Shown piece by piece: positions 16,145 through 46,927 of a DNA stretch of 64,000 nucleotides. Position numbers and translations under genes: made by a program. The stretch comes from Crambe crambe (lineage: Eukaryota; Porifera; Demospongiae; Poecilosclerida; Crambeidae), in contig OZ004588.1 of the NCBI GenBank assembly GCA_963924555.1, positions 2,604,001 to 2,668,000 of the forward strand, given 5' to 3'. Numbering within the stretch: position 1 is the first letter of the stretch; each line of letters opens with the position of its first letter. The notes beneath the pieces are model-generated. The model worked only from the letters and a program-made list of their open reading frames with translations, searched no databases and was not told the DNA's origin.

Positions 16145-16365
16145 GTGTGAGAGGATGATCAGGTCTGAACTGGTGCAGTTGTGGAAGTCTCGGGTCCAGT
16201 ACCTGAGGCATTATTATTGCTTCAACGGCAATAGACCAAAGCAGAGAGGCTACCCCGTCCTTTCCCGCCATGTCTGGTTTATCCCTTTCATTTTGACTGC
16301 ATGGTGGTTGTTGATAGCTGTCATCTTTCTATACAAGCTCAAAATGCAGGATTTATTAAACACTG
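16145..16365 (+). CDS. Exon 2: start codon and N-terminal transmembrane segment
   Basis: The exon opens after the acceptor ttttag; the first ATG is at 16155 with an A at -3 (gagaggATG). It encodes 70 codons plus one base and ends at a gtgaga donor in phase 1. The first 38 residues are basic and aromatic, including R-P-K-Q-R-G. Residues about 40-60 form one hydrophobic helix (F-I-P-F-I-L-T-A-W-W-L-L-I-A-V-I-F). With positive charge before the helix and no signal peptide, a type II orientation (N-terminus in the cytosol) is expected. Copy 2 (60470-60690) has the same length and only a few substitutions, which supports a real exon and this start. No family was recognised for this segment alone. 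Confidence 0.75.
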
Positions 16366-17719
16366 GTGAGAATTAACTATAATAAGTGTAATGGGTGTAA
16401 AATTAATTGTTAACTACTATGAATGAAGTTGGTAGATTTACTTTCAAATACACTTTGAATGCTTTGCTCACCATGAATGAGCATACAAAAATAAATGAAG
16501 TCCAGTGTATTAGCTATATATTATATATCCAGTATGTTCCACATTGCTGGGTTGCATAGAGCTTTTGTGATTATTAGCTACTATCCTAGTTGTGAACGAG
16601 TGCAAGATAATGAGCTATTACAAGCACTCTGGAGTTTCATTCTTGCCATCTTAGTACTCACTACCATCATAAAGAGCCAACAATTATATGCCATCTTCTA
16701 TTTCTCAGCCATTGCTCGAAAGCACTAGCTAACAGTTCAGTTGTGCTACTGTTAGCTACGCCTTTTTTCCCTCTAGGATCAATGTACATAGTTTGATATC
16801 AAGTGCCAACAAGTGACGAACCTTAAGAAATATCTTAATAAGAACTCTGAATATTGTTGATAGAATAATAGTAATGATAAATTTTTTTTAGATCTTCAGT
16901 CTTCAGTATTAGCTGAATCTTGTAACCACCTGCAAAAAAGAAATTGTCAGTTCAAATGATGTACATAGCCAGTGCTGAGCAAAATTGTCATACTTGGTAT
17001 GCAGTTGCTTTTGAAATAATTTTTTAATCTTAACTGAAGTTTAATGGAGGACACGCTAAATGTCCATGTCAATTTTTTTACAGTTTTTGAAAACACTGAA
17101 GTCATATCAGGTCTTCCATATTGGGGGGGGGGGGGGGGGGGGGGGGTGGGGTGTAAAGTTGGAAAGCTCTCACAGAGAGCTCTCTTTTGAGACTTAAATC
17201 AAGCTTATAGAGGGTAGTATAGTAAAGATGTGGGTGTTTAACTGGGGGTTCAACCTCCCTTAATAATTGATGCCCCAAAACAAAATATCATGAAAACAAA
17301 ACAAGTTTCTTGCTCAGTGATATTGTTCTTATTACCATCAAAATTAATTTGGTGCAACAACTATAATCTCACATGCAAAAGCTTGGTTAAAAGGATGCTT
17401 TGCTCCTTACCTTTAAAATCAAAGAACTATATTATAGAGGAATTCTTTGCACTAGCAGTAGTAGCTAAGCTGTATCAAAGCAGGTGCATCAAAGTATTTC
17501 TGAATAGCTGTAGGGTAACTAGTTCAAATATAATTATCTGCAACTACTAAGTAAGAATTCCGAGTTAATAAGCTTACAAATTTGCATTTTAAAAATAGTT
17601 ATTATACAGAGTATAGGAATGGGAATGAGACTTTATGAAGCATGCTATGAATAATAATAACAGTAATAGTATTCCTACCATTCTGAATTACCTGAAAATG
17701 TTATTAAACACTCTTGATC

Positions 17720-17988
17720 TCTAGGGCCAAGCAAACTTGATTATTAGTTTTTCGTCACCACCCACACTGCACAGCATGCAGCAGCAGAGTTTCACTAGCT
17801 CTCTGCGCTCTCCCTGTAGATTGCTAAGCTGTATTTGAACTTGTGGATAACCTCGACATTCATTCCTTACTGCCATAATTTTTTCAAGACAGGAAGTATA
17901 ATGAAGTAATGAATAATAACACCCACCTGCATCCTTTTTAACAAGAGATGAGTTGAGAAACTAATAAGCAAGTTTGCTTGGCCTGAAG
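17720..17988. mobile_element. Foldback or TIR element
   Basis: The arms ggccaagcaaacttgattat (from about 17726) and its near complement (about 17950-17983) enclose about 200 bases. The element is absent from the matching intron in copy 2. No coding capacity; no clear target duplication was identified. Confidence 0.55.
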
Positions 17989-18711
17989 TACACTACTTCA
18001 CCTTGAATGAAGTTGGTATAGAATTATATATAGGTTATTGGATGAAGTCGAGGAATTCCACTATTTTAGGAACCTGAGAATAGCAAGCTTAACTAAGATG
18101 CTTATGGAGCTCAGGCTAGTCTTGCTTTACTGGTCATTAATTAGTTTAATGCCCTGGTGGCTTCACTTTTTTAAAAAACCTCATTGTGGTCAAAATTTCA
18201 AAGCATATTATGTCTAACTGTTTTGCTCACACAAACCGGAACAAGTAAAAATTATAATCAGGTAGCACTCTCTATGTAGGATGGGTGTAGCTTCTCCAAT
18301 ACAAACTAGACTCTCTGTATCTCTTCTATTCTTGCTACAGGCTCAAATAAACTTCTTCAGAAGATGATCATATGACCGCTCAAACTCCACCAGAACAGCG
18401 TCAACGATCGGCACCAGCCGCCGCCTAAATCTAAAATTTTTATGATTCGTTCATCATTATCATCATCATCAGATTCATTTTCTTGCCAGGCTGTAACTCC
18501 ATGATCTTTTCACATATATACGACAATAAATTCATATCAACTTGTGCAGTTATAATCACACTATGTGCTTTTAGCATCGTTATATCCACAGTTTCCCTTC
18601 AAAATAATCGAATGACTTTTCATTATAACTATGTCAGCCATTTTAAAATGACATCATTTGTCATGTGCGCGTGTCTGTCACTATCACGTGCAAGTGAAAG
18701 GGGAAAAAATT

Positions 18712-18958
18712 ATGCTAAATAAAAAGGCCATGTAGGGTTAGTCTGGACTTTAACACTTTCTGTTAAGCAAAAATCAAAGTTATGCATAATAATCCCTACA
18801 TCACTGCCTAAACCAAGCAGAACAATTTTATACTGACATGAACAATTAAAGCAGCTTGGTGGGAGGAAGTGATGTAGGGATTATTATTGAAGGCAGATTT
18901 TTGTTGACAGAAACTGTTAAAGTACAGACTAACCCTACATGGCCTTTTTATTTAGCAT
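18712..18958. mobile_element. MITE with long terminal inverted repeats
   Basis: The arms begin gctaaataaaaaggccatg at about 18714 and end with the complement at about 18957. Each arm is about 62 bases, and the interior also contains a smaller inverted pair (ataatccctacatcact against gtgatgtagggattat). It contains no ORF. It is absent from the matching intron in copy 2, so it inserted after the duplication or was lost there. Confidence 0.75.
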
Positions 18959-19929
18959 TTTTTTTCCTTTCATACCATTAAAAGCTACTGGTACAAGATT
19001 TTTCATTTCAAGGTATTAACTTAGCAGCTATACAAACAATACACTATTGATACTATATAGGCGAATGCCTTCACCATTGAAGGTCAAGAATTAGTTGAAT
19101 TTGGTACCCAATGATAACTATAAATGTAATGACTAAAAATCCAAAAAAGTTGGCTAGGTAGATAGCTAACATTTTAATTATTAATTTGAATGTCTATCTC
19201 CAAACTATGATTATACTGAACAATCATGCCTTAAATGTGAAGTATTCTAAGATTTTTACTTTAAAGTCATTTTCCTTTATTTTTATCATAGCTTTGCTAT
19301 CAACCTAGCCACCTTTTTTATTATTCATATTTTAGTCATGGTCTGGCCATCCTCTTATATTACTTTGTGCACAAATTTGCCGGCCATATAAAAAAAAACA
19401 ACCTTAACAGAGATGAAAATGTGCACTATGCTTTAACTTGAGAGCTCAATGCTTCCCAGTCTCCCGTCCACCTCTTCAAACTTAGCCTGGAGGTAGCCTA
19501 AGGATCAAGATATCACCCCCCCCCCCCCCCCAAAAAAAAAAAGGGAAAAAAATTGAACATGTTGACTTGCCTTGTTTCCTGCTTGGTGATCATTTTTTGT
19601 AGCTTGCTTTTAATCACTTTCAACACTAGGTTAAGGACATTGGATAGTAACATGCATCCAATAATATTTTAACAACGAAATAATGCCGTAATTATTATAG
19701 TTCACTGTGTGTATGTTTAAGCATGTGTACACATAATTATTATGAGATCTACAAGAACTAATAAAATATACAAAGTGTTAGTACTACCTAATGAATATTG
19801 TACATTCCCATATGAATATATTTGAGTATATCCACTGGCCCTTTGAGCTAGCCACTTGAGGTCAAGTAGTGTAATATGACTATAGCTACTATGTTAGAGT
19901 ATTGTAGACTCATCTCAGCTTTCTTCCAG

Positions 19930-20076
19930 GTTGCACAGAAGGTGATTTCAGACGTGTAAATGGAACTGGTACTGAGGGTCGTGTGGAGATATGTCTCAAT
20001 GGAACTGTATATGACCAGATGTGGAGTGACACTGATGCCAGTGTGGTCTACAAGCAACTGGGAATGTCATCTACAG
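19930..20076 (+). CDS. Exon 3: N-terminal half of an SRCR domain
   Basis: An exon of 147 bases with acceptor ttcttccag and donor gtagta, phase 1 at both ends. It encodes about residues 71-119. It shows the SRCR pattern: an N-terminal V-N-G-T-G segment, V-E-I-C-L-N-G, then W-x-D-x-D-A-S-V-V-x-K-Q-L-G. SRCR domains are extracellular ligand-binding modules. Only the first half is present: the next exon does not carry the second half with its G-P-I-W and W-G-x-x-x-C landmarks. The cysteine normally found in T-V-C is Y here but C in copy 2 (61131-61277), and the one in V-V-C is Y in both. The domain may no longer bind like a full SRCR. Confidence 0.8.
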
Positions 20077-20358
20077 GTAGTACTACAACCTAAACTGAAT
20101 GTTTGAGAAGTGGAAATGCAAAATAATTATTTATTCTACAATTCTTCAGTATTGAAAGAATGATGGTATAATTATATTATTAAACTCAACATTATGTAAT
20201 ATAATTTCACATAGCCCTACTCAGACTTTGATGGTTGTCAAAACTCCAAATTGCATAACTGGGACTTATCTAATGCTCCATGCTTGCATAAAAAATTCTT
20301 TCCCATGACCAGTCTCTGTGATATCTTTCATCATCATCATCTTCTTCTTCTTCTTCTT

Positions 20359-20642
20359 CATAGGCGGAGGAACCAGAGGGGCCAGGGGGCAATGGCCCCC
20401 CCCCCCAGATTTTAAACTTATGGTTTTGCCCCCCCCCCCCCCCCCCCCCCCCCAGATTTCATTCAACTATTTATGTCATTGTAGGAGATGATTATACATG
20501 ACTGCATATGCAAAGTGAAACATTTTCAATTCTTTTTTGACTCTTGTTTTTTAAATTAAATCACAACTATTGTCGGGTATGCATGGTGCAATGGGGATTT
20601 GGGGTTGGCCCCCCCAGGTAAAATTATGTTCCTCCACCTATG
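20359..20642. mobile_element. hAT-like non-autonomous element, 284 bp
   Basis: The ends are inverted repeats (cataggcggaggaacc, and tgttcctccacctatg at the right). The 8 bases ttcttctt flank both sides at 20351-20358 and 20643-20650. The flank is itself a ttc microsatellite, so the duplication alone is weak. However, copy 2 has an empty site at about 61590-61615, which supports an insertion. The interior carries long C runs (20396-20407 and 20429-20453). Confidence 0.75.
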
Positions 20643-20931
20643 TTCTTCTTCTTTCAAGGGCCAACTACACTACAAGTAGCTATGGAGAAATGAACCTATA
20701 ATACATCGCACTAGCCTACTGAACTGTCTGTGTTGCAATGGCTTGGAAATAGGACATGGCTTATAATTATGATAGTAGCAAAGTATAATCTAGTAGTTAG
20801 TATTGAGATGGGAAGAAAAAATTAAAGTGCCTGTAAATCAGAAACCTTATATTACATCATAGTAAATTTCTTTAAGTAATTAATTAGAGGTAAAATTGTA
20901 TCACCTCTTTTTAATGCTCTTTTTTATATAG

Positions 20932-21255
20932 GTGATATCACAAGGTACTTGCTTGCTTTGAACTTCCTGCTGGTATTGTTGTGGTGGAAGTTTGCCATAA
21001 CTGAATCTGAAGGAGCACTCAAACCTCACCCATATAAAGGCACCTGTTGTTCTATGTGCACCAATCACAAGCTTCAATATGGCTGCACTACTGCATACAA
21101 GAATGCCTCCATAAACACTTTACTACCCCTTCATGATGATTGGAAGTGGTATCGAAGAAGAAGATCTCTTTTCACTATCCACTATTCTGACCTTCAAGTG
21201 TTGGCACCATTATTATTACTATTGTGTGGTGATGTTGAAACTAATCCTGGTCCTG
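20932..21255 (+). CDS. Exon 4: hydrophobic segment, Cys-rich region and 2A ribosome-skipping motif
   Basis: An exon of 324 bases, acceptor tttatatag, donor gtgagt, phase 1 at both ends; residues about 120-227. It starts with a hydrophobic stretch at 125-142 (L-L-A-L-N-F-L-L-V-L-L-W-W). A region with four cysteines follows, then a basic cluster Y-R-R-R-R at 193-197. It ends with a leucine-rich run and G-D-V-E-T-N-P-G-P at 219-227. D-x-E-x-N-P-G-P is the established core of 2A peptides, at which the ribosome fails to join G to P and so releases the upstream chain. Known 2A motifs occur in picornaviruses, some non-LTR retrotransposons and some sea-urchin and sponge NLR-type genes. The final P would be the first residue of the downstream product. 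The matching exon in copy 2 is interrupted by a mobile element. Confidence 0.85.
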
Positions 21256-21507
21256 GTGAGTATGTTACTTTAGATTCAGTGTGTATTCAAGCAAGTGTAT
21301 GTGAAAAGTGTACACAGTATTATGGGCTAATAATAATACCCACAGTTAAAAGTATTCATCATGATGATGGCCACACATGGCTAACCTGATAGCTTATGTA
21401 TGTCATAATATGCTAGTGTGTGCATTGTACTAGACTGTACATCACCTATGTGGTAATAATATACCACCTCTTAATGCTATTTCATGTATTCTGCCTTTAT
21501 AATTCAG

Positions 21508-21531
21508 TGAGTGAGCGTAGCAATCAAGCAG
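21508..21531 (+). other. Candidate 24-base micro-exon
   Basis: After the acceptor ttataattcag, 24 bases are open in phase 1 (peptide V-S-E-R-S-N-Q-A) and are followed by a donor-like gtcatg, also phase 1. In copy 2 the acceptor reads cgg, not cag, so it is not conserved there. It lies between the 2A exon and the first death-domain exon, and including it would not break the frame. Evidence is weak; transcript data would decide. Confidence 0.25.
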
Positions 21532-22162
21532 GTCATGACTTATTAATCCTCAGCGTATGGACAAGGGCTATAGTGCATGTCTGTATGTGTATCTGTTACA
21601 TCCACTATGAAGCCAATAGTGATTATAGTGCTTCAATTTCATTAACAATGTCTAAGCGATACTCTTCAGTGCTTAAATTGAGCTGATTTCTTGATAAAGG
21701 CTTATTACTGAAAGAAGGCAAGATTTGCCACCTATGTGCACATGCGCTCAATAATGTATGTTTATCGACCATTACTTACTCATCTATAGGTGAGCTTTGT
21801 GTCTGTGGTACTCGTACATGAGTGTTACATATGAATAGAGTACTATATAATCATGCATGATGGGTGGAGTTTCGTATTGATGTTAACATGAATCTTATGT
21901 ATTTTATACATTAGTGTCCAATGTAGCCAAAGTAGCTAAGAGCAATGCTTCAGATAACCATAGTTAGTGTTTAGTAATCAATAGTTTAATTAAAAAGCTA
22001 CCTTAGTGCTTCCACTTCACTCTGATCTCTGAAACTTGTTAGTGCTGGGACTAATATGCATGCCTGTTTGCTCCAAATGTTTAAATCTGTTAGCAAATTT
22101 GAGTATGAGCAAGTTTCAGTGAATTGGAGTATAACCCAAGTATTACGTATGTCATTGGTATC

Positions 22163-22335
22163 TGTGATGTTCTCGATTAGACAAGATTATATAAATACAC
22201 TTGATCAATCATAAAGCATGAGGTTAGGTACTAAGTATACAGTACAGACTAATGATGATGACATCACAAAGATTAATATGATTGATGACCATTACCAAAT
22301 TATGATAGTGCAATGTCAAAGTACATTCCACCACA
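22163..22335 (-). repeat. 3' LTR
   Basis: It is 173 bp, with terminal TG...CA on the minus strand. Its first 154 bases match 26286-26439 with very few differences, including one gat/tat-type change, suggesting a fairly young insertion despite the coding damage. Confidence 0.9.
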
Positions 22336-22349
22336 TCTCCCCTACAAGC

Positions 22350-25300
22350 TCAACACCATGAGGGATTGTAAAATGTATGTGGGACAGAGATTCTTCCTGA
22401 CCTGGTCCTGATGACTCCTGGCAAGTCATGTGGTTGGTTAACAGGGGGGTTGTATGGTGGGTCTGCTGTTTGTTGACACTGTCTTGGAGATTCTTGTGGC
22501 TCTGAGATACTTTGCTCAGTAGAGTTTGGTTCCCGCTGCTCCTCCGTCCCCCTCGTCGAATCTTCGTCTAAGTCAATGTCTGGAAGGGCATTCAAGTGAC
22601 GTCTATTCCTTCTGAACTCTCCAGATGAGGTCATGACATTGTATGATCTTGGAGCTGTCTGTTCCACCACTACTCCACTCGATCGCCGGTCAGTAATCCA
22701 CACTGGATCTCCCGGTTCCAGAGGCTCCAGGCTCCTGGCACGATGGAGGTGGTCAAAATTGTCTTTCTGACACTGTTTAGCTGCTGCTTCCTTTTTTTCT
22801 CACCTCTGTCGTATCTGGCACTGATGGCTCGAGTTGGGTTGGAACCAGGGGTAGACTAGTACGCAATCGTCTATTCATGAGCAGCTCAGCAGGACTGTAA
22901 CCATTTCGTAGTGGTGTAGCACGGTAAACCAGTAACGCTTGGTAAGGATCATCTGCCTTCCGGAGTAGATTCTTTATGGTTTGTACAGCTCTCTCAGCTT
23001 CTCCATCGAGGACTACTTGTCTTATGATAAAACCCATACTCATCAGTGAATAGTTTAAACTCAGCTGCAGAAAATTGTGGTCCATTATCCGAAAAAACTA
23101 TTTCTGGAATTCCATGGCGAGCGATAATTGATTTCATGTGTCGTATGATGTCTGCACTTGACTCTCCTGTAAGTTTTACAATCTCAATGAACCTTGAAAA
23201 ATAGTCCACTATCAACAGGTACTTGGCTCCCTTCCACTCAAAGAGATCCATTCCTAATTTTTGCATGGGCCTTCTGGAAATGGGCCGGAGTGAAGTGGTT
23301 CCGGTCGCTGTTTCCTTTCTTTCAGACACACTGTACAGTTCAACACTACATCTTCTAGTTGAGTGCTAAGGCCTGGCCACCATACTGATTGCTGTGCTCT
23401 GTCTCTACACTTCACGATGCCTTGGTGTCCTTCATGAATGCGTTTCAGCATATCTGACTGTAGGGCTGAAGGGACAACAATTCTGTTCCCTCGCAGAAGG
23501 AGACCATCAATTACGGACAGTTCAGAAGACACGGAGTAGTATTTCTTCACAGGGCCTTTTAGTTGTGACTTGTGGGGCCAACCATTGATCACAAAAGACA
23601 TCAACTGTTTGCAAACCTCATCTTCTTGTTGATGCGCTTTTATTTCTTGGAGCCTCTTTTCTGTTGCCAGGAGGCCAGTTGTACGAATGCTGTGGTTTCT
23701 TGTTCTAACTCAAGGTCCTCTGGTCTGCTGTCGGTGACTGGGGCGCGAGATAGAGCATCAGCGATGATCAAATCCTTCCCGGGCACATGAGAGATGCTGA
23801 ACTGGTACCTCATAAGCCTCATGCGAAACCGTTGGATTCGAAGTGTCAACTCGTCAAGTTGTTTGTGGCTCAGGAGGGCAATCAGTGGCTTGTGATTGTA
23901 TAGATGTGGAACTTTTTACCAAGCAAGAAATGTTTGAACCTCTCGCACACCCAAGTTATACCCAGGGCCTCTTTTTCTATTTGTGCATATCTTTGCTCTG
24001 TGGCTGATAGGGTCCTGGATGCATACATTACTGGTTTCCACTCACCATTTGGTTGCTTTTGGAGCAAGACTCCTCCCAGGCCATATGAGGATGCATCTGA
24101 TGAAACAGTTGTCTCCAAGTTGGGATCATACAGTGCTAGCACTTGGTTGGAACCAAGCTCTGTCTTGATGACTTCAAAGGCCTTTTGTTGTGGTTCAGAC
24201 CAATACCAACTGTTCTTCTTGCTGAGTAGCTCCAGAAGTGGTTTAGACATTTCTGCCATTCGGTGAAAACTTGCTGAGCTGGTTAGTCATGCCCAGAAAT
24301 CGCCGGACTTCCGTGATGTTGGTAGGTTTTGGCATTGACATTATAGCCTTCACCTTGTCTGGGTCAGGCTGGATGCCATCTGGTCCAATTATGTGCCCCA
24401 GAAACTTCACAGTGGTTTTGGCAAACTGACACTTGTCTCGATTTAGTGTCACCCTAGCTGCTTCTAGTGCCAATCGCTGATCGTGCTCAGCTTTGGTCTT
24501 CCCATACACAAGTGTGTCATCAGTCTGATTGACAACTCCCTCCAGACCATCTAGAACCTCGGACATTCTACTTTGGAAGTACTCGGGTCCTGATGTGATG
24601 CCAAATGGAAGACGGTTAAAACAAAATCTCCTGAATGGTGTGATGAACGTGGTGAGGAGAGCCGACTCAGGATCCAGCTTGACCTGCCAGAACCCTGAGT
24701 TGGCATCTAGCTTGGAGAACACCTTTGCACCTCCTAGTTGGGCCAGAGACTGTTCCACAGAGGGCAGAATATGGCGGCCTTGCTTCACACTTTCATTCAG
24801 CTTTGTTAGGTCCACACAAATTCTAACTCGACCATCGTTCTTGGGTACGACTACCATAGCAGAGCACCAATCAGTTGGTTGATTCACCTTTGAGATGATC
24901 CCTGATTTTTCCATCGCTTCCAGCTCTTTTTTTTTTCTTTTTTTTGACATACGTGGAATAGCTACTCTTCTTGGTGTCGATAGGGCAAATGGTTGGGCAT
25001 CTGACCGTAGCTGGATACGGTACTCCCCTTTTAGGTTTCCCAGGCCGTGAAACAGTTTTTGATGAGCTGAGATAATGTCAAATGCTTCGGAATCTATAGC
25101 ACATACCCGAGACAGGAGGTTTAGACTTTTGATCACTGGTCGCCCAAGAAGTGGATTTTTCAACCAAGATACTACAAATATTTCCTCTTTGATGGTGTTC
25201 TTATCCAGTCGTAATTCGGCAGTAAACTTTCCCAGTACCTTCAGTGCATGATTACCAGGTCCATACAAGGCTTTGGAGGTGGGGCTCAACGTAACACCTT

Positions 25301-25403
25301 TCAGGTTTGCTAACATTGACTCAGGTATCACACTTACGTCAGCTCCTGTGTCGATTTTTAGCTCGACAGGAATGTTGTTGAGCCTCAGTGATACACCATC
25401 CAT
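22350..25403 (-). pseudogene. pol: pol of the Ty3/gypsy element: protease, RT, RNase H, integrase
   Basis: The first open segment (25403-24243) has an aspartic protease with D-T-G-A-D near its start, then a reverse transcriptase ending in F-L-G-H-I-I-G. In the RT active site the usual Y/M-x-D-D reads Q-T-D-D; both aspartates are kept. RNase H follows (24259-23640), with S-D-A-S and D-A-L-S motifs. The integrase has an H-H-C-C-like region near 23500-23350, a D-L-F-E-W segment, S-D-N-G and G-E-A-E-R. Frame breaks lie near 24250, 23890, 23635, 23300, 23020 and 22780. It is a relic and no intact product is possible. Confidence 0.9.
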
Positions 25404-26258
25404 GGCTTGGAGTCACCTTGAGGGTCCCCTACAGCACCGAGGAATGTCATTTCATTGTCACTGTCTGAATCTGAGCAAACCTCTGCCACTAACTTGGTCC
25501 TACAGAACTCTTGATAGTGCCCCACTTTTTGACATCTGTGACATGTAGCAGTGATAGCAGGACAACTATGTTTTGGATGAGGTGGACCCTTACTGCATCG
25601 TGTGCACTTGGGCCCGGCAGGATTTGTGGCTATAGGTCTTCCAACTTTCTTGTCATTATATGCCTTCTTGAACCGAGGCCTATTGGACTGAAGGAGGTCC
25701 ACAGACTCTCCTGTGATGCCACTGTCTTGTTTCAACAAAGCTTGTTCTTGCTTCACATACTCTTGCTGGCGTGCAGCAGTTATAGCTTTCTCTAATGTCA
25801 GCCTCTGGAGCTTCATAGAGAGTTTCTTGTCTCTCACCCCTATCACTATTCGATCCCTAATCAGGTCATCTCGAAGATCTCCATATGCACAATGCTCCGA
25901 TAGCTGGTAGAGCGAAGTGATGAAGGTATCAATGGCCTCTCCTTCTTCTTGCTTGCGAAGATTAAATTTAGCTCTCTCAAACACCACATTTCTTTTCTTA
26001 ACGAAATGTGCCTCAAACTTTGCTTTAATTAACTGTTTCGAATTTCTTGCTGTCTTCCTCACTCAGACCGAATGATGCCATTATATCATCAGCTTCTGGG
26101 CCCATGCAGTAGATTAGAGCATTCACTTGGCTCTCTTCTCCCTTCTCAGCAAGGCCTGATGCTTGTCTAAAGCGTAAGAATCGACGGATCCACATGGGCC
26201 ATTTGTCTGGTTGGCGAAAAATAAACTTGTCTGGAGGTGAAATCTGATAAGATGCCAT
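25385..26258 (-). pseudogene. gag: gag of the Ty3/gypsy element
   Basis: On the minus strand the ORF starts at the ATG at 26258 and runs to a frameshift near 26030. A second frame then continues to 25385. The second part carries a zinc knuckle C-H-R-C-Q-K-V-G-H-Y-Q-E-F-C (CX2CX4HX4C), typical of nucleocapsid, preceded by another Cys/His cluster and a basic linker. The upstream part is the capsid-like region. One frameshift breaks it, so it cannot make full-length Gag. Its end overlaps the start of the protease frame (25403) by about 19 bases, as in elements where gag and pol are in different frames. Confidence 0.85.
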
Positions 26259-26285
26259 GTCTAGATAGCTTATCCCACCGCTTCT

Positions 26286-26439
26286 CAAGATTATATAAAT
26301 ACACTTGATCAATCATAAAGTATGAGGTTAGGTACTAAGTATACAGTACAGACTAATGATTATGACATCACAAAGATTAATATGATTGATGACCATTACC
26401 AAATTATGATAGTGCAATGTCAAAGTACATTCCACCACA
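26286..26439 (-). repeat. 5' LTR, truncated at its inner end
   Basis: It matches the first 154 bases of the 3' LTR. The 19-base inner end is missing, and gag begins only about 28 bases further on. A normal primer-binding site is therefore not recognisable. A deletion across the LTR end and primer-binding site is the simplest reading. Confidence 0.8.
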
Positions 26440-26856: not shown

Positions 26857-27135
26857 ATATTGATGAAAAGACTCTGCTAAGTGAACTAGCTTCAGTGGAG
26901 ATCAAGTGGTTTCAAATAGGCATCCAGTTAGGCATCAAAGGAAGCAAACTTAAAACATTTGAAGAAAATTACTCCTCCACTTTCAGATGCTTGATGGAAA
27001 CTGTGAGCCATTGGTTGGATGGGAATACGAATGTTCCAGTATCCTGGAAATCTGTAGTCACAGTTCTTAATGATCCTTCAGTTGATGAGTCAGGAATAGC
27101 AAAGCAAATACAGGAAAAGTACTGCTCCAAGAAAG
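26857..27135 (+). CDS. Exon 5: death domain 1
   Basis: Exon with acceptor gttgtcatag and donor gtatat, phase 1 at both ends; residues about 228-320. It begins D-I-D-E-K-T-L-L-S-E-L, then W-F-Q-I-G-I-Q-L-G-I, an L-x-x-F-E-E helix, C-L-M-E-T-V-x-x-W-L, and V-S-W-K-S-V-V-T-V-L. This is the six-helix spacing and the conserved W of the death-domain superfamily, which mediates homotypic protein interactions. In phase 1 it joins directly to the P of the 2A motif, so it would be the start of the downstream cytosolic product. Copy 2 has the same exon from 63798, running off the window. Confidence 0.82.
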
Positions 27136-33194: not shown

Positions 33195-33289
33195 CTATGG
33201 GCATGTTTCATTTATGGGGTTAAAGGTCAAACGAACGATGCGCATGTGTATTCTTAACGAACTAGCCCGGAATCTTGCAAAAATTAATC

Positions 33290-34814: not shown

Positions 34815-35084
34815 CTCCTCCCCTCAGTGTGAACAATATTGTGGAAGTCCTAAACATGCTTCCATGGAAAGATGTTGGCAAAAAATATCTGAATGTTCCC
34901 GAGTCTAAGTTAAATGCTATCAAAGACAAGTGTGATACGGATGAAGAAAGGCTTGTAGCCATCGTTAGATACTGGTTACTAAATGACCCGTATGCATCCT
35001 GGAGGAAACTTATACGTCAGCTTGACAACTGGGACCGTTCAGATATAGCAGACAGGATACGGAAGTATGCAGAGAAACTAACAG
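34815..35084 (+). CDS. Exon 6: death domain 2
   Basis: Exon of 270 bases, acceptor tcatttgtag, donor gtcagt, phase 1 at both ends; residues about 321-410. It reads A-P-P-L-S-V-N-N-I-V-E-V-L, then W-K-D-V-G-K-K-Y-L, a K-x-x-x-I helix, R-Y-W-L-L-N-D-P, and S-W-R-K-L-I-R-Q-L ending with A-D-x-I-R-K-Y. That is the death-fold helix pattern with the conserved W in helix 5. It is distinct in sequence from death domain 1, so the array was not formed by a very recent exon copy. Confidence 0.82.
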
Positions 35085-36937: not shown

Positions 36938-37234
36938 ATCCCAACCTCACCTCTCATGATTTGCTGGCTGCTCTGGACACTGTGGGGAATGTAGAGGACA
37001 TCAGTGAGACTTCTATTGGTGGTGTCTTGGAGGGAGTACTTGAAATACCAAATCCAAAGTGGAAGGAGATGGGATCACAATGTTCTTCAGAGGCTGAATA
37101 TCATTACCAACTTATGGAGTATTATCTAAAAAGTCATGAACATCCTGGATGGAATCACCTGGCTGGGCAACTTCTCTGCTGGAAACAACACAGAGCTCTT
37201 CACAAAGTGAAGGGGAATGTTACAGCTGATAAAG
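36938..37234 (+). CDS. Exon 7: death-fold domain 3
   Basis: Exon of 297 bases, acceptor gtcctcccag, donor gtaagt, phase 1 at both ends; residues about 411-509. It starts D-P-N-L-T-S-H-D-L-L-A-A-L-D. The middle carries a linker richer than usual in G and E, and the end has L-M-E-Y-Y-L-K-S-H-E-H-P-G-W-N-H-L-A-G-Q-L-L. The last part is a good match to helices 4-5 of death domains; the first helices are weaker. It is the longest and most diverged of the death-fold exons. Confidence 0.72.
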
Positions 37235-38782
37235 GTAAGTGTGTGGTAGATGACACATACCAAGTGAGGCAAGGGTGAATATAGTCATGTGATTGGTCAA
37301 TAGTGGATACAAGATCTCATATATTCCACCTTGAAATATCACCATAGGAGGTAGTGCAACACCTGTGGCACTAGCACAGGCAACGATTGTAATCTGTGCC
37401 TTGTTACCCGAAGATCTCCCATAAAATTTCTTCGTGCCTCTCTCAGCTATTCATTTTGGTTGCTTATGCTCAAGGTTTTTATCAACATTGTTAATACGAT
37501 GTGGTTTATCAGCAATGTCGTGTTCTTCACATGTTGACTGGAGCAATTTGAAGTATTTATCAATCTTATTCCTGTGTGATGGCATCTGCCCTAGCTTTTG
37601 ATAGAGGATCAGCCATACACAAGATAACTTAGGATTACGGCTCATAAATCGAGACTACCAGCCCTATCCATTGAATTTCTCGGTATCAACGCCTTTCTTT
37701 TCTACCGTCTTTTGAACCATTGCAAGCAGCTACCTCTCTCTTGGTTTTTCTATAACCTATGGATGCTGCTTGCTTGAGAAAAGTCACAAGCTCCTTCTCT
37801 TCTTCACTGAAAAGGTAAGGCTTGGGGCCAGATTTCTCTCCATGCATTACTCGGCCAGTAATCTTGTCCTTCAGGGTTGACCTATACACCTGGTAACTTC
37901 TGGATGCTTCATTCAGCCCAAGGGTTCCTTCCTTAATGGCTTCTATAGCTTGTAGCATGCTTTCATCCGACCATTGCTTGAACTTTTTTGGCCTTTGACT
38001 TGTTTCAGTGACTCTCTTTCGTTTTCCCATCCTCTTTTGCTCTCTATAATATGACTGATATTAAAAAAAACCGGAAAAAAACAACCCAAACATGAAAAGA
38101 AACAAAGAATGGCAATCTACCTTGTGTTTTGACATTGATTAGCACACAAAAAAGTTATCTTGTAGGATAGAACAAGAAACCATCAACGCAATAAACTCCG
38201 GCGCCACTCCGCTACTTCCGTGCATGAATGAAACTGGTCGACATTGAATGACGAGGATAGATGGTGGACGACAATAGATAACTTGTTAGGAGTTCAGTTT
38301 ATCTTCCTTTTCTTTTCTTTTTGTGTATTTGTGTAAGAATATCATGAAATGGGTCTTATCTATCACTTCATTAATTCTTTTGCCAACAGATATACAATTT
38401 GGAGGGTTTTTTGTGGTTTTTCTATTAAGTCCAATATGCACTCCTTGTTGAGTGCATATATGGCTAGAGGGTGTGAACCAGGATAGTTATGGTTGTGCAT
38501 AGTGTGGGAGGGGCTAACAGCTGGATAGCACTATTTCATTATTGAAATGTGCAACACAAGTCTTTTTATGTCAAAGCAATTCCCAGCATATACAGTACCT
38601 ATCATTCATCTCTTGATGTTAACACTAAGTGCATGCATACACCTCATATTGTCTTTAGAGCATGAACTATAGTAGACTGAAGTAATACATGCTCATACTA
38701 TTTCCATTTGTTCCTGTTACTTGTTGAATGGACTTGTTTCTATTGCTCATCTCATGTTATATCTCTATGTTCTCTCACACAG
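37235..38782 (+). other. Intron 7 of gene copy 1
   Basis: About 1.55 kb. It holds the broken pogo-like transposase at 37450-38030 on the minus strand. The remainder is AT-rich with no exon that could be supported. Confidence 0.55.
37450..38030 (-). pseudogene. Pogo/CENP-B-like transposase, N-terminal remnant
   Basis: The minus-strand frame from 38030 begins M-G-K-R-K-R and has a helix-turn-helix of the pipsqueak/CENP-B type (F-K-Q-W-S-D-E-S-M-L-Q-A-I-E-A-I, then G-L-N-E-A-S-R-S-Y). After a break near 37690, a second frame (37645-37451) has F-K-L-L-Q-S-T-C and N-N-V-D-K-N. That corresponds to the first catalytic aspartate region of the DDE domain, where the usual E after D is replaced. The sequence between and beyond is deleted, so it cannot be active. 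Confidence 0.65.
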
Positions 38783-39046
38783 ACCCCTCCCTCACCCTCA
38801 CTAATCTCACTCAGCTGCTGGAGGATGTGAGGTATTGGGATAATGTGGTTTATTATCTAGACATCCCCAACTCAGTGTGTACTAGTATTCAAACACAACA
38901 GTCCAGTGAGTCTGAACGTAGGAAGGCTTGTTGGGAGTGGTACCTGAACAACCACCCATGCCCTTCATGGCGTCACATTGCTAATGCTCTCTATATGAAA
39001 GATGAGCATGGAGTGCTAGAAGTGTTGAAGAATCGCTACCTTAAAG
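38783..39046 (+). CDS. Exon 8: death domain 4
   Basis: Exon of 264 bases, acceptor tctcacacag, donor gtgagt, phase 1 at both ends; residues about 510-597. It reads D-P-S-L-T-L-T-N-L-T-Q-L-L-E-D-V, then W-D-N-V-V-Y-Y-L-D-I-P, a C-W-E-W-Y-L-N-N-H-P helix, and S-W-R-H-I-A-N-A-L-Y. This matches the death-fold pattern and resembles exon 7 at its start (D-P-x-L-T) and at x-W-x-H-x-A. The two may be old duplicates. Confidence 0.8.
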
Positions 39047-40012: not shown

Positions 40013-40283
40013 CAGTGGTGGATTTAGAGGGGTTTCTAGGTTTCCACTGAAACCCCCTTTCAACAGACAAATGTAGAGTTATAGCAGGCCAGACAGAGCC
40101 AGCGCTATATACGAGCTGCTATGTTGTGGGGTCAAAGTACGGCGCATAAGCATGCGCACTAGCTGTCAATCAGGCATGCATAGTTTTTAAAAAAGTGGGT
40201 GTGGTCAATGAAAATTTTCCCCGCATGCAAAAAAGCGCGCGGATCTTAGAGACCCCCTCTATAAAATTCTAGATCCGCCACTG
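40013..40283. mobile_element. 271-bp CAGTGG-type TIR element with 5-bp duplication
   Basis: The element begins cagtggtggatttag and ends ctagatccgccactg, and is flanked by CTCCT at 40008-40012 and 40284-40288. It is the same family as the 489-bp element at 62227-62715, which has a TGTGG duplication. The end sequence looks hAT-like, although 5 bp is shorter than the usual 8. It has no coding capacity. Confidence 0.85.
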
Positions 40284-40955
40284 CTCCTGCAGTCTGGGAC
40301 TCAAGTATGAAGAGCAGAGAACAAAGCAATATCATTTTACAGCGACTTTAAAAATCGCCGTTTTCATCTGGTCGTTCATCATCATCATCATCATCATCAT
40401 CATTAAACAACTTATTTCAGAAATGGTTCATTCAAATGCTATAATTCTTATACCAATCTACTCAGAAATGACTGCGCTATAATCCTTTACCTTTAACTCC
40501 ACATGTTCAAAAATAGCATGTCATTTTCCAATTTGTTAGCTTTCAACATACAATGAGGCAGACATTTTTATGCCCCGCTCCATACACGTGATTCTTGGAT
40601 CTTAACCTTGCAACTGACTAGTGAATCTGTCATTAGCTGTCTCTCTTGATGTTGGTCTCTCAATGCTCAGAGCATAAACCCTAGACACTAGTCTGGTTAT
40701 GAATCAAGTCTTGATGCAACAGTATATCAGGTAGGTACATATCAGTAAAGGCCTTAAAAATTATATGCAAAATTAGGTAAATTGGAATCTTATAAACTCT
40801 ATGGATCTTCCAAATCAGATTCATTTCAGCTCATACAATATTATGATGAAATCTCCAATGAACTACATAGCTACAATACATAAACTTTAATTTTTGATAG
40901 CATCCAGTTGCCTATAATAAAATAAAGCATTACATCAAAAAAGATGAACAGGTAA

Positions 40956-41142
40956 AGGAAAAAATATTTATTCTAAATAAAGAAGAGAAGTAGGGATGGC
41001 TGTGTGCGGTTCAAAAAAGTTCAGCAAAAAGAGAGTGTACTTTAGTCAAGTAACCCCTTACCCATCACCAACTACAAGCCAACTATTCCTACTTCACTGC
41101 CACACCCATCCCTTTATTATTTAGAATAAAATTTTTTTTCCT
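40956..41142. mobile_element. MITE with inverted ends, relative of the foldback at 35619
   Basis: The left end (aggaaaaaatatttattctaa, then agtagggatgg) and the right end (cccatccctttattatttagaataaaa) are inverted repeats. The interior shares several 8-15 base phrases with 35619-35791. It contains no ORF. Confidence 0.65.
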
Positions 41143-41745
41143 TTATCCATAATAATACTGTATAGCTGCAAATATTGGCATAGACTTCATTTGGCAGTTT
41201 GGCAGTTGATTTCTCAATCGCCAAAATTAATTCCACAACAGTAAAAGGTTATTTACATAGATATGGTAAAGGTTATCAACATTACGAATCTGCAAATAAC
41301 ACGATTTCGATCGATAGTTAGACGAAATAGTGAAGCAACAGTAGAGTCGGTGTCCAGGTACTTTTGTAGATATGATGTCCACTTATTCAGACGCCATAGA
41401 TTGTTTGAAAGTAGCTACTCACACTTACATGTGCTTGCTCGATATAGCATGCACGCACTGTGCCAATTAATTTTATGAAATGCGCATGCATACTCTACTT
41501 AATATATATATTTTTTTTTCATAGTGTCTTTTTTAATTTATATTATTATTCTTTTATTCCAATTTTTTTTCCCGAAATAGTAGGTGATGATGAAACAAAC
41601 AAACAAACAAAAAAATAACAACAAAAAAATAACAAAAAACACAAAAAAACAAAAACAAAAAATAAATAAATAAAATAAAAAAAACCAAACCAAACTACAG
41701 CAGCAACAAACCAAAACAAAACAAGAAAGAAAGAAAAAAGGCTGA

Positions 41746-41958
41746 CTACAAAAGATCGTCCAGTTCAGGGGGTAGGGTTGGCTGGCGGTGCAGCCCTAGA
41801 CTTGCATTTCCGCACCACAGAGCAATGGCCACACGCCCGAAGAGGTGCTTGGTGGATGAGGTAGGATCAGGCGAACCAGTCCTCTGTCCGATAGCATAGC
41901 CGATTGCACGGATGGTGGTGATAGCGTCCTCCACGAGGCCACCTAGAGTTTCAGCCAT
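41746..41958 (-). pseudogene. Retroelement ORF C-terminus, 5'-truncated
   Basis: The minus strand is open for about 70 codons. The pattern G-x-L-V-E-D-A-I-T-T-I-R, G-Q-R-T-G, then L-F-G-R-V-A-I-A-L-W and H-R-Q-P-T-L-P-P is one I recognise from the end of long retroelement ORFs in invertebrates. Directly downstream on the same strand is a T-rich simple tract (complement of 41600-41740), which looks like the 3' tail of a target-primed insertion. The upstream part is missing. The element class is not certain. Confidence 0.55.
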
Positions 41959-42429
41959 GAGAGGAATAAATTCAAGCTAGAATCAAGTAAGGTATTGAAG
42001 AGGTAGTGAAAATAGCTTAGTTCATTATTCCAAGTCCATAACCTTAAAAGCCCACCTTATAGCTGTTGTGCTGGATTCTCTCCGTTCACTAGCTAGCTGA
42101 ACCAAGACCCTCGTGAGACTATAGCTAGCTTTAGAGCTTGATTTGAAGTCTCACTCTAAAATCATCCACTTTCTGTTTTGCAACAACTGAATTGCTCCAT
42201 AGGAAGTAGGCATCCTTGTTGTTGTTTTTTGTCGAGGAAGGGGGTGATGGGGTCACTGGTGGACTACAAGCCTGTGACTACACAGTTTCAGCATAGACCT
42301 TTTTATAGAACTTATCCAGACTGAGCCTGGTACATTCTGTGATTCATAAGGAGCCCCTCCCCCATTTATGTCCACCCCCTAGCCATAATCATATGATTTT
42401 GAACTTACAATATACTGTCACTTAGTGCA

Positions 42430-42620
42430 GTCTAGAACTGAAATGGAGAAAGTTGAATATTGTGTCTCCACTGTAGCTCTGGACTTCTCACTTGGAGGTC
42501 CTTGTCTCAGTTCTTACTGCAGTCACACTTGCTTGCTTGTCTCAAATGACAATCAGAGCTAGTTAACAGCATCACCTAACCACATACCTCAATATCTACA
42601 AGCACATTACAAGCAACAAC
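42430..42620 (+). pseudogene. Decayed fragment of the COR part of the GTPase exon, first
   Basis: Phrases such as tagctctggacttctcacttgg, ggtcc, ctgcagtc and aatgacaatca follow the order seen at 45920-46070 in the intact exon 9 but with many changes and indels. It has no open frame. It shares its downstream end (gctagttaacagcat, accacatacctcaatat) with the second fragment at 42775-43000, so the two fragments are themselves a tandem duplicate. Confidence 0.65.
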
Positions 42621-42774
42621 CCAAGAACCAAATTTAAAGTTAGTGCTTTCTAGCTCTATAGGAAGCATGCATGAAGAAATCCTTTAGTTAAAAACATGTT
42701 TACTATATCATCATTCTATGAAACGTTTCCCTGATTCCTCGTTGATTCTTAAATAACTTCAAACCTGAAATACA

Positions 42775-43000
42775 GTCACTTGATTAGAATAGTATAGAAC
42801 TGAAATGGAGAAAATCCATGAATATCATGTCTCCAATAATTTGGCAGTAGTTCCTCTTGCTCTGGACTTCCCACTTGGTTGTTACTTCTTGCAGTCTTAC
42901 TTGTCAAATAACAATCAGTTTACTCTTGAGCTAGTTAACAGCATTACATAACCACATACCTCAATATCCACAAGCACATTACAAGCATATGCATGCAAAT
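42775..43000 (+). pseudogene. Decayed fragment of the COR part of the GTPase exon, second
   Basis: It carries the same order of phrases as exon 9 around 45920-46070 (actgaaatggagaaaa, atcatgtctcca, cctcttgctctggacttcc, ttgcagtcttac, aataacaatcagttt) with a deletion in the middle. It is closer to the intact exon than the first fragment. It is not open and lies upstream of the intact exon, in the same orientation. Confidence 0.7.
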
Positions 43001-44355
43001 TTACAAGCCATTTGTAATGCGATTACAGGAAGGTTAGGGGAAGATTCAAAGAGTTATGTTCGTGGAGTTGATATCAAGGCAAGGCCATCATCCAAACCCA
43101 ACAAAAGCCAAGAACTACTTCATGTTCAGATCATTGATGAAACTTCAGTTATGTCAGCTCCAGGACTTACAATAAATAGAAAACAAAGAAGAAACATAAA
43201 GATTTAGATATTCAACTGGACACATTGAAGGCTTACCATCCATAATGAGCTTTCTATCACCTCATAGAAAAGAATCACCTGTTCCTTAGATTGATGAATT
43301 TGAGCATTTAGTTTTCATAAGGTTTATATGATGAAGCACTATTGAATTAACAAGGTCTCAAATTGCATCTTGGGACCAATTAGCTCTTTATGGAATCAGT
43401 GTAAATACCATAATCGTATAAATTTTCAGAGGTTTTAAATTTCATGATTTCCGGAGCTGTTCCTATAATAAAGAATTTCTGCAGATCTAATTTACACATG
43501 GAAAATAATGCATGCGCATAATAGCTATATCATTGCCTGCTGCTGGGGCCGAGTGACATGCATGATGGCTACCTTCTCGTGATTTGTGGCTACTACAGAG
43601 AAACCTAGATAGTCCCCCAAAAAGAAGAAAAGCTGGGCTGGCGATGCCAGACTAAAATCTGGACTGCTATATACGGAAAGCGAGACACTTCATTGTAGAA
43701 GAGAGACAGGTAATGGCCATGATCCCGCATCACGCACGCATGCGCATCGTTATCATTATGATGTCATAGTACTAATTATTTTCAAGGATTCTGATCGACT
43801 ACAAAAAAAACAAAAATAAAATCCCATCGAAAATTTATACGATTACGGTATATTTTTTCACTGCTACTACTTTTCAGGAATGTGATAAGTATATATTATT
43901 AGTTTGATAGGAAGGCACTATCGGCATTATCAGGTTCTCCACCATTGGCTGACTAAAGTGGTACTAGGTAGCTAGCTATCCTGTCAATTACTTGATTGCT
44001 GATTGATTCTTGACCTTACGTAATTTGGAGCTGGCTACCACTAACATGATCAGCACTCACTTGGCAGCTAGTGAGCATAAAGAAAGAAGAAAGGAAATTG
44101 TTTTGTTTATCATTCCACTATCATATCTGGAATATAGTAGAATGTCCTTACATGTGCATGCAAAAAAAACTGTTACGTAATGTCCAAGAAAAAACTGCAG
44201 GACAGTATGCAATGATGTTCTATGTCTGCTGTGTGTGTAACACATACCAAGTAGAAAAAAACTAAATTTGAGTGGGTGTATTAAATATTAGTAATATAAT
44301 TTATACATGCACAAATGACATTCGTCTTTTTTTTTATTTCATTGACTACCCGTAG

Positions 44356-46470
44356 GTTCCGCTGAGTCACGTCGACTGTATAATGAAGCAATGAAGCAGG
44401 GACACGTAAAGTCCCAGATCAACAAAGCCCTCCTTTATGGGGCTCCAGGAACCGGAAAATCAAGTTCGATGGACCTTTTTGTCGGTAACCCTCCAAGACA
44501 AGCCAGAATAAGCACTCCTTTAGCTGCTCGTCCAATTACAATGATTCAAATGGGAATCACATCAAAGGAGTGGAAAAAGCTTCATCCAAAAGAACGGAAA
44601 GAAATTCTAGCAAGGGCCATATATACTCAGCTTCATGCCAACGACACATCAGCTAATTCTGGTGAGGGTTCTGATTCTGATGAAATATTAACGACTCCTG
44701 AGCATAAAGAAGCTCGTAGTAAAGAGGATAAGTCGTCACGTGACGTACATCCACGAGTACACCCAGCAACTCCTTCCAGTCCAACATCTGCTAGGAAACC
44801 AAAGAAAGGTTCTCATTCAAAGGAAAAGATTTCACTGCCATCCCTTGGCACACACGATGAACTAACAAAATTATTGGATGAAATTTCCAAATCAGATGAT
44901 CTTGAAGCTTTAACTGTCTTCCGGAAAGTTAAACTAATCGATTCTGGTGGACAACCGCAATTTCATGAGGTGTTACCTGTATTTCTTCGTCGCATGTCCC
45001 TCTACATATTTTTCATCAAGTTGTCAGAAGAACTCGCCACCAAGCCCATGGTAGAATATTTTGGGGAGGATGGGAAACGTGTGGGGACACCTTACCAATC
45101 AGCTCAGTCCAATGAGCAGCTATTGAAGCACTGCCTTCGCACTTTGCACACTCACAGATCATCTCCCGATACTAAAGGTGAGTGCTCCAAAATCATGATC
45201 GTAGGGACCCACAGGGACGAAGAACACCTGTGCACGACCGAGACAAGAGAGGAGAAGAACAAGAAGTTAGAAGAGCTGTTACTGCCGATGTTCCAAGAGG
45301 AAGTCGTCTATTACAACCTGGCAGAAAATGAGGTGATCTTTCCAGTCAATGCCAAAAATCCTGAAGAGCTTGATAAGAGTACAGCTAGTGATATCCAAAA
45401 TGTAGTCCTAACAGAGTGTATGCCTGATCCCATTGATGTGCCCCTTCAGTATTTCTCTTTGGAAATTATCCTTGAAGAAGTCAGCCTTTCTTTAGACAGA
45501 GGGGTATTGAGCAAAGAAGAATGCCTTAGAGCAGCAGATAAGCTTTTCTTTAATGAGCATACACTGGATGCAGCTCTCCAGTTCCTAGATGAAATTTCGT
45601 CAGTCCTTTATTTCCCCGAGGTTCTGGATGGTGTTGTATTTACTAACCCTCAAGTCCTTTTGGATAAGGTAACCGAGTTGGTGGAGATTACCTATTGCTT
45701 GAGAGGTGGAAAAGCACTTCGTGCACTCTCTGGAGGCTGGAAGAAGTTTAAAGATCATGGCATTGTTAGCTTAGAGCTTCTGCAAGAGAAAGAGTTTAAT
45801 AAGCATTATGTGCCTGATATCTTTACTCCTGTTGATCTGGTCAAGCTCTTTAGAAAGTTGCTCATCATAGCTGACTTTAGTGCTTCAGAGTACATCATGC
45901 CTGCCCTCCTTCCTGTTCTTGAAACTGAGAAGGTTCATAAATATCGTGTCTCTAATGATTCACTTGTAGCTCCTCTTGCTCTGGACTTCCCACTTGGAGG
46001 TCCTCGTCTCGGTACATACTGCAGTCTTACCTGCTTTCTCATCTCTAATGACAACCAGTTTCCCCGTCCTTGGAAAATAGTGTTGCTTCCTCCTTCCAAC
46101 ACTCCAGCTTGCCTGAATAGAAACTGCACCCAATTCATGGTACCTGGCTTTCCTGGCTCAGTCACTCTGATTGACACATTCTTTCATGTTGAGATCCATG
46201 TGGATGACACTGCCGAGAAAGTTTGTAGCAAGCTCTGCTCTTTTGTCTCTCAGGCTGTGTTTGCAGGTTTAAAGAAAGCCATGATAGTTCTTGGGTACAA
46301 CAACTCGATCCCTTCGAAAGCACTTCTTTGTCCTTGTGGGGCTAAAGATCCCCATGTTGCCACTTTCGGGGATGGTCTCTGGATCTGCAGTCGAGATAAC
46401 AAAGTATTTGGAGATCTCACTCCTAGACACCTGCTGTGGTGTGATCAACCAGATCATTCTCCTATGAAAG
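44356..46470 (+). CDS. Exon 9: Roc-COR GTPase module (Roco family)
   Basis: One exon of 2115 bases, acceptor gactacccgtag, donor gttggt, phase 1 at both ends; residues about 598-1302. It has a Walker A/P-loop G-A-P-G-T-G-K-S-S (626-634), G3 D-S-G-G-Q (793-797), a G4-like T-H-R-D (882-885) and a G5-like N-A-K (929-931). Between G1 and G3 lies a low-complexity linker of about 65 residues, first acidic and then S/K/P-rich. After G5, a COR-like region begins near 960: F-S-L-E-I-I-L, L-F-F-N-E-H, then S-S-V-L-Y-F-P. The exon ends with a Cys cluster (C1256, C1258, C1275, C1293, with H1264) that may bind zinc. Roco proteins are GTP switches; here, flanked by death domains, it resembles DAPK1/MASL1-type architecture. 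No leucine-rich repeats or kinase are seen. Confidence 0.85.
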
Positions 46471-46607
46471 GTTGGTCAAATTTACATCCTTGACTTATTG
46501 TCTAGTTTTATTATTATTAATTTAGTTAGTGCCTTCCTTCACTGCTTCGACTTTTAATAATTTTAGTCTTATCTTTATCATGGAATTTGTGATCATTTCA
46601 TTTGCAG
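46471..46607 (+). other. Intron 9 of gene copy 1
   Basis: 137 bases, T-rich, starting gttggt and ending tttgcag. It is by far the shortest intron of the gene. It contains nothing else. Confidence 0.75.
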
Positions 46608-46927
46608 GAGCTTCTGCCTCTTCAACTCCTACTATGATGGAAATCATTTGCTTCCCTCTAAAAGATTCCAAAGTTGATTTGGCTGAAGAAATTGGAACTA
46701 AATATTTCAAACTAGGAACTTTCTTGCTTGAAGATGCCACTGGTGCTCGTATTAGTGCCTTGCAAAAAGAGTTGAGATATAATGCACAAGATATCAATTG
46801 CGAAATCTTCAGAAAATGGCTGAGTGGGGATGGGAAAAAGCCTGTTTCATGGAAGACTCTAATTGCTGTACTTGAAGACATTGGATTGAGTGAACTAGCA
46901 AAATCGATAGCAGAAGTCAAGCAATAA
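46608..46927 (+). CDS. Exon 10: C-terminal death domain and stop
   Basis: The last exon opens in phase 1 after gatcatttcatttgcag and ends at TAA 46925-46927; residues about 1303-1408. It reads P-T-M-M-E-I-I-C-F-P-L, then W-L-S-G-D-G-K-K-P-V-S-W-K-T-L-I-A-V-L and L-S-E-L-A-K-S-I. The second half is a close match to helices 4-6 of the death domain in exon 5 (P-V-S-W-K). The two may be copies of one ancestral domain, now at both ends of the cytosolic product. The first half is more diverged. Confidence 0.8.

Follow-up and report, generated by a model that had tools for sequence, protein, structure and literature searches.

Can one animal gene supply both a membrane protein and a soluble death-domain GTPase by letting the ribosome skip a single peptide bond? 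The question is raised by a gene on the forward strand of a 64,000-nucleotide stretch of the genome of the sponge Crambe crambe (contig OZ004588.1, positions 2,604,001 to 2,668,000; hereafter the window). Its first exons encode a membrane leader closed by the 2A/StopGo octapeptide DVETNPGP, and those that follow encode death-fold, Roc-COR and death domains. The sequence evidence supports a canonical 2A, in a context of the active class and conserved across a gene family, between the membrane leader and the death-domain/Roc-COR effector. We consider it likely that the gene belongs to a large host multigene family, in which the 2A leader is usually skipped off to leave a cytosolic death/Roc-COR effector and a minority of the product stays tethered at full length.

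Conservation of the 2A motif

DVETNPGP conforms, here and family-wide, to the core pattern (D/G/C/N)(V/I)ExNPGP. The exact pattern occurs twice in the window, the second time in a tandem copy of the gene, as against none in 100 shuffles; the 2A core reported in the initial annotation is thus confirmed. Across the 143-Mb assembly the DVExNPGP DNA pattern is found 167 times and never when read backwards, and the pattern D(V/I/M)ExNPGP gives 208 sites (105 + 29 + 74) with controls at zero. Five of the 208 are unlisted, and all placement counts below rest on the other 203. Of these, 167 are clustered, in groups of at least three whose members are less than 200 kb apart.

Exon 1 provides a test that does not depend on the motif, as the query contains no 2A letters. 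It has 71 match rows in its own genome, the window copy included, and 69 of them are followed on their own strand by an exact 2A at no more than 20 kb. In the other two rows the 2A is farther off, 302 kb from one match and 24 kb from the other, which is a fragment of 27 residues. The list of 2A sites used for this test omitted the 105-site set and the rows at 4.68-4.98 and 6.6 Mb of contig C10, and 69 of 71 is a minimum because further sites could only raise the count. The 40 bases upstream of the ATG are identical in the tandem copy and in all four other loci compared (L062-L065). Chance origin of the motif is ruled out by the shuffles, the empty reversed-pattern controls and this exon-1 linkage.

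A protein search with exon 3, which carries the 2A, returned 86 match rows, every one free of stops, and 63 of them run from position 3 or earlier to the final 2A residue. All eight 2A codons vary silently among 39 distinct exon-3 sequences, and the residues change only at V (to I in four) and at x (to I in one), the two open positions of the published core motif. Nine loci had entered this codon table through the exact DVE pattern and the rest through protein match; one of the 40 rows, an interrupted copy, was excluded. The exon 3 donor falls one base past the proline codon, as it does in 38 of the 39 distinct uninterrupted copies. The best-conserved part of the exon is the block before and including the 2A. 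This holds for eight sequences whose identity falls as low as 42% and for an alignment of 31, some of them near 30%. Of the 96 database proteins that match an exon-3 profile, 94 also carry the motif, some of them only about 30% identical (one of the 96 reads NLGP); this count is biased because the proteins were partly found through shared 2A words, a bias from which the exon-1 test is free. Immediately upstream, PLLLLLCG fits the description of the leucine-rich (A/S/C)G motifs 2/6, with D at p12. The available portion of PMC12846837 describes this motif 2/6 class as 'LLLLSG-like' and gives a motif-6 example that was active in vitro.

Probable joining of the exons

Nine coding exons with AG/GT splice borders join in one frame (Table 1), and a recount gives 1408 codons plus stop, in agreement with the initial annotation; the exon 9 acceptor is a putative one among several candidates. 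Exon 1 ends in phase 1, and exons 2-8 are each a multiple of three in phase 1-1. Since all internal exons are phase-symmetric, the open joined frame is weak evidence on which exons join. Stronger and independent support comes from a paralogue 0.29 Mb away (G000:C11:2909389-2939300), in which exons 1-8 lie in order on one strand (exon 9 was not searched for there). Its exons 1, 2 and 3 stand directly upstream of exons 4, 5, 6, 7 and 8, which are 87, 68, 66, 80 and 87% identical to ours (tblastn; L066, L070, L071). Intron 3 measures 5.6 kb in the window versus about 1.0 kb in the paralogue.

Domains of the effector and the leader

Exon 8 is, on its predicted fold, clearly a Roc GTPase with COR directly after it. 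Its AlphaFold2 model reaches a pLDDT (predicted local distance difference test) of 79.6 and a pTM (predicted template modelling score) of 0.80, and a fold search of the PDB matches LRRK1/LRRK2/Roco. The PDB sequence search with exon 8 had no match. The Roc-COR assignment made initially therefore stands by fold despite Pfam, where Roc fell below the cut-off in the window protein and COR gave no row. Six of the 10 relatives scanned match Roc and four match COR-A at E <=0.01, all below cut-off. The exon carries GAPGTGKSS (P-loop GxxxxGKS) and DSGGQPQF (DxxGQ); across 46 sequences G28, G33, K34, D195 and G198 are invariant and Q199 nearly so.

The four death-fold domains annotated ahead of Roc-COR fared unevenly. 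Exon 5 is a Pfam Death domain (whole-protein E 2.8e-9, with the best stretch in exon 5), and exon 4 joins it by similarity, sharing 32% identity with exon 9 and 35% with the N-terminus of the NACHT protein P0017. Exons 6 and 7, on the other hand, matched none of the Pfam Death models and resemble the other death exons by a weak profile match (hhalign 57%). The proposed C-terminal death domain in exon 9 matches Pfam Death at E 0.0047, though below the cut-off. Scanned against Pfam, the window protein gave no kinase, LRR or ankyrin row, and neither its leader nor its effector gave a NACHT/NB-ARC row at E values up to 1; a sub-threshold row for SNaCT11, a NACHT-associated C-terminal family, fell on the SRCR part (E 0.075).

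In the leader, the half SRCR domain of exon 2 scores 18.7 bits in Pfam, below the cut-off of 26.1, over profile positions 7-44 of 100, and the scan found no complete SRCR domain (about 100 aa) in the window protein. The weak match is backed by 51% identity to an Ephydatia muelleri SRCR protein across 16% of the 340-residue query, and the first two protein-database matches are SRCR proteins of Ephydatia and Amphimedon. None of the 16 matches in the size band is a full-length homologue with this leader (15 are SRCR proteins and one is a death-NACHT protein). The SRCR exon is present in the window gene, the tandem copy and the C11 paralogue. At seven of the 65 loci the interval from exon 1 to exon 3 is only 76-150 bp, which leaves no space for this exon of 147 bp, and it is therefore optional. 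For exon 3, structure prediction gives a confident helix at 2-28 only (pTM 0.29).

The ratio of nonsynonymous to synonymous substitution rates (dN/dS) differs along the gene. Exon 3 shows 0.17-0.40 across seven pairs, with 0.40 against the C11 paralogue. Against that paralogue exon 1 gives 0.18, exon 2 1.08 on five differences, exon 8 0.22 (113 silent and 98 changing differences, one pair), and exons 4, 5 and 6 give 0.74, 0.66 and 1.05. The leader and the GTPase switch thus look constrained and the death-fold exons relaxed or diversifying, on one or two pairs for every exon other than exon 3. Exon 7, a death-fold-like module, has 25 amino-acid-changing differences and 1 silent (window 38785-39045 versus L071:399-659; P 0.016, uncorrected, eight exons examined); diversifying selection on it is possible, and is not claimed here, as it needs more paralogues.

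Linkage of leaders and effectors in the genome

For 12 of the 13 exon-3 copies on contig C11, a same-strand Roc exon follows at 21-43 kb, ahead of the next exon 3. The distance is about 6 kb in four of five copies on C10 (8.47-8.56 Mb), the fifth having a COR match at 11 kb, and in all three on C5 (4.67-4.75 Mb). Altogether at least 21 of 65 exon-3 loci have a Roc exon partner, and many others retain unscored candidates. This linkage used 65 of the 86 exon-3 rows, short or weaker ones being dropped. The searches scored the best 63 of 569 candidates for exon 8, 150 of 685 for exon 4, 150 of 337 for exon 7 (94 rows), 150 of 241 for COR (126 rows) and 103 of 232 for NACHT. A second Roc query (P0046) recovered the same arrays. 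At least 37 Roc-COR exons stand in tandem at 1.6-3.85 Mb of C11, and 12 are paired with this family's 2A leader.

Of the 203 2A sites, 31 are followed on their own strand by a death-domain match within 2 kb, and the three other placements have no such match. COR matches number 9 downstream versus 2 upstream within 8 kb, and 11 versus 6 within 15 kb. The COR count took 75 of the 126 rows; the 51 omitted are on C16 (11, at least about 1 Mb from its 2A sites), C17 (17) and C18 (23), the last two having no 2A site listed. The argument for a leader-COR linkage is carried by the regularity of distance together with the intervening exons.

Roc-COR may not be the only partner. Among the candidates scored, a NACHT match follows 6 of the 203 sites within 12 kb and precedes one, and three of the six (C16:2088616, C8:6449150, C21:1489881) have a leader of the exon-1/exon-3 type. 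The initial remark that a Roco protein behind a 2A would be unusual needs refinement, since leaders of this type also precede some NACHT genes. A death domain and NACHT come after the 2A at C12:668135, the two of them in one open frame of 999 aa, and in an array on C9 the 2A occurs with ankyrin repeats and a segment that looks death-like by eye (unmatched in Pfam). From their order and distance, NACHT, ankyrin and Ig exons would seem to be joined to 2A leaders. The leaders vary by array in the 21 loci read, but in all of them the 2A is preceded by (S/A/C)G and a leucine-rich stretch.

Several arrays are recorded here in their own right. DVESNPGP occurs at C9:300000-307000 (L067), in an array of 23 2A sites at C9:306738-572027. 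DVELNPGP at C1:3553600-3559600 (L068) begins an array with Ig-domain frames downstream, and DVEVNPGP closes a leader at C5:6257000-6263000 (L069) whose downstream frame resembles, by eye, a CBP/p300 TAZ zinc finger. Two opposed arrays at 4.10-4.98 Mb of C10 hold at least 32 2A sites, 10 of them with a death-domain match within 0.4 kb downstream.

The leader cassette is in phase 1 and ends one base past the 2A proline codon, so it is joinable to any phase-1 effector gene. That StopGo has been domesticated genome-wide, with unrelated portable phase-1 membrane leaders before Roc-COR, NACHT, ankyrin and Ig partners yielding released and tethered forms at a ratio set by the nascent peptide, is a wider proposition to which we give even chances. 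With its 208 sites, such a device would take cellular ribosome skipping far beyond the sea-urchin case.

The tandem copy and mobile elements

Table 1. Positions of the gene's exons and of other features in the window.
Feature	Position	Strand	Description
Exon 1	16155..16365	+	ATG, basic N-terminus, transmembrane helix at residues ~40-62
Exon 2	19930..20076	+	half SRCR domain (weak Pfam match), 49 aa, 147 bp
Exon 3	20932..21255	+	second transmembrane helix, Cys-containing segment, leucine-rich stretch, 2A
2A/StopGo core octapeptide DVETNPGP	21231..21254	+	predicted skip G226/P227
LTR (long terminal repeat) retrotransposon in intron 3	22182-26439	antisense	154-bp terminal repeats, 98.7% identical
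Exon 4	26857..27135	+	death-domain-like, by similarity
Exon 5	34815..35084	+	death domain, Pfam Death
Exon 6	36938..37234	+	weakly death-fold-like, hhalign
Exon 7	38783..39046	+	related to exon 6
Exon 8	44356..46470	+	Roc GTPase and COR, by predicted fold
Exon 9	46608..46927	+	C-terminal death domain, stop; putative acceptor
Tandem second copy	60480..64000	+	exon 1, SRCR exon, broken 2A exon, start of exon 4

The 2A exon of the tandem copy is split by a transposon-like insert of 489 bp (~62227-62715), which has inverted ends (CAGTGGCGGAT/ATCCGCCACTG) and is flanked by a TGTGG repeat. Its 15-base end recurs at window ~40269-40283, perhaps in a further copy of the element. The LTR element in intron 3 is Ty3-like by eye, with minus-strand frames that resemble gag, reverse transcriptase and integrase. 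Pogo/Tigger-type transposase-like frames, again by eye, lie on the minus strand around and after exon 6 (37220-38060).

A retrotransposon origin of this 2A copy is rejected at the locus: the LTR element, its reverse-transcriptase-like frame included, is antisense and in intron 3, an intron of about 1.0 kb in the paralogue. No endonuclease or reverse transcriptase was found in frame with the 2A in the window, where the in-frame exons downstream are death and Roc-COR.

Mechanism and alternatives

In the arrangement we favor, the exons would be spliced into one mRNA. Exons 1-3 would give the membrane leader, and ribosomes would usually skip the Gly226-Pro227 bond at its end, as expected from the known behavior of 2As (PMC4981915, PMC12846837). 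The leader, a short protein that has two transmembrane segments and ends in NPG, would remain membrane-bound. The ribosome would then resume at P227 to make a separate death-domain/Roc-COR/death-domain protein, predicted to be cytosolic because it is without the leader. Failed skipping would yield a minority full-length product with the same effector tethered to the membrane, and the efficiency of skipping would thereby set two pools of product. A leader of a sea-urchin NLR has been shown to act in this manner (PMC4981915). A role as an immune or cell-death switch is suggested by the domain content, the tandem expansion and the Amphimedon expansions of PMC8195603.

Several observations weigh against this arrangement. 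In some artificial polyproteins, 2As can work less well when a signal sequence stands upstream. The phase symmetry of all internal exons means that exon skipping would go unseen. Of the 37 Roc-COR exons listed on C11, 25 lack a partner 2A exon from this family; the leader is thus optional, and these genes must begin differently. The downstream bias of death-domain matches weakens with distance, from 35 versus 2 upstream within 6 kb to 44 versus 7, 2 and 0 in the other placements within 15 kb. For COR within 32 kb, 26 of the 203 sites have a match downstream versus 21 upstream, which is uninformative because the genes are in tandem.

If skipping were instead near-complete, the gene would provide a 1:1 pair acting together, with a membrane half-SRCR hairpin as sensor and the Roco protein as effector. 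The canonical core, belonging to a class with an active member in the available portion of PMC12846837, would suit such a pair, as would the retention of the SRCR exon in the window gene, its tandem copy and the paralogue. However, the ectodomain is dispensable in the seven loci without space for that exon. A glycosylation sequon (N177) between the second transmembrane segment and the 2A is also awkward for a cytosolic segment and hence for a simple hairpin, although the evidence from a sequon is weak. We regard the 1:1 pair as doubtful. Much less probable is that exons 1-3 form a separate membrane protein, through two genes or alternative splicing, and are never joined to the effector. Phase-1 symmetry would permit any joining and the introns here are large, yet the donor past the 2A proline is kept in nearly every distinct uninterrupted copy, so translation is expected to run into another exon; the paralogue retains the same downstream exons, and the C10 and C5 copies have their Roc exon close by. 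We give slightly less credence still to a 2A that is a fossil or neutral, in a leader that was brought in by a mobile element or inherited from an ancient gene and has since lost its action. Non-LTR retrotransposons do carry 2A motifs (PMC11512398), the 2A exon of the tandem copy is broken, and one database protein has lost the consensus. Against this, changes in the octapeptide are confined to its tolerant positions in the 39 distinct exons, almost all database relatives keep the motif (their finding being aided by shared 2A words), and the retroelement seen nearby is an LTR element that lies antisense in the intron after the 2A exon.

Usual skipping with a tethered minority remains our preferred explanation. 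If it is true, about 200 host sites, many heading expanded death-domain families, would make StopGo a regular expression mechanism in an early-branching animal. It would also offer a modular way to fit the same membrane leader onto different innate effectors. Dual targeting and partial skipping would be directly testable, with a natural series of leaders at hand.

Comparison with known systems

Roc-COR with a C-terminal death domain, as in the window protein, is the architecture of DAPK1. The Roc-COR tandem is shared with DAPK1 and LRRK1/LRRK2, whereas the several N-terminal death-fold exons and the 2A leader set the window protein apart, as does the lack of kinase, LRR and ankyrin rows in its Pfam scan.

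StopGo is described as viral and rarely cellular in the available portion of PMC12846837, which cites Rao et al. 2025, a study of 2As from eukaryotes and viruses; a 2024 paper (PMC11512398) names NLRs as the cellular case. The viral motif 2/6, as given in that portion of PMC12846837, has the same DVETNPGP, D at p12, G at p11 after A/C/S and a leucine run, and what differs is that here the motif belongs to a host gene family in arrays. The Death-like/TRADD-N expansions of Amphimedon (PMC8195603) are likewise sponge lineage-specific, with one to three N-terminal Death-like domains and variable C-termini; in contrast, a 2A or Roc-COR architecture is not seen in the available portion of that paper. 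Among the matches listed from the open-access literature, none was seen to describe 2A motifs in a sponge gene or ahead of a Roc-COR protein. The initial statement that 2A motifs are known from NLR-type genes of sea urchins and sponges was borne out for the sea urchin (in the available part of PMC4981915) and unconfirmed, in that literature, for sponges.

The closest counterpart is the sea urchin Strongylocentrotus purpuratus, in which, according to the same part of PMC4981915, 2A leaders occur in 85 of 241 NLR proteins, N-terminal leaders are active and the products are split between the cytoplasm and the exocytic pathway. There, too, D(V/I)ExNPGP closes a hydrophobic N-terminal leader ahead of a DEATH-domain effector in a large expanded family. 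The sea-urchin leaders tabulated in that part are signal sequences of 26 aa before NACHT-LRR effectors, whereas the leader of the Crambe gene has 226 aa, two transmembrane segments and a half SRCR domain, and stands before a Roc-COR effector.

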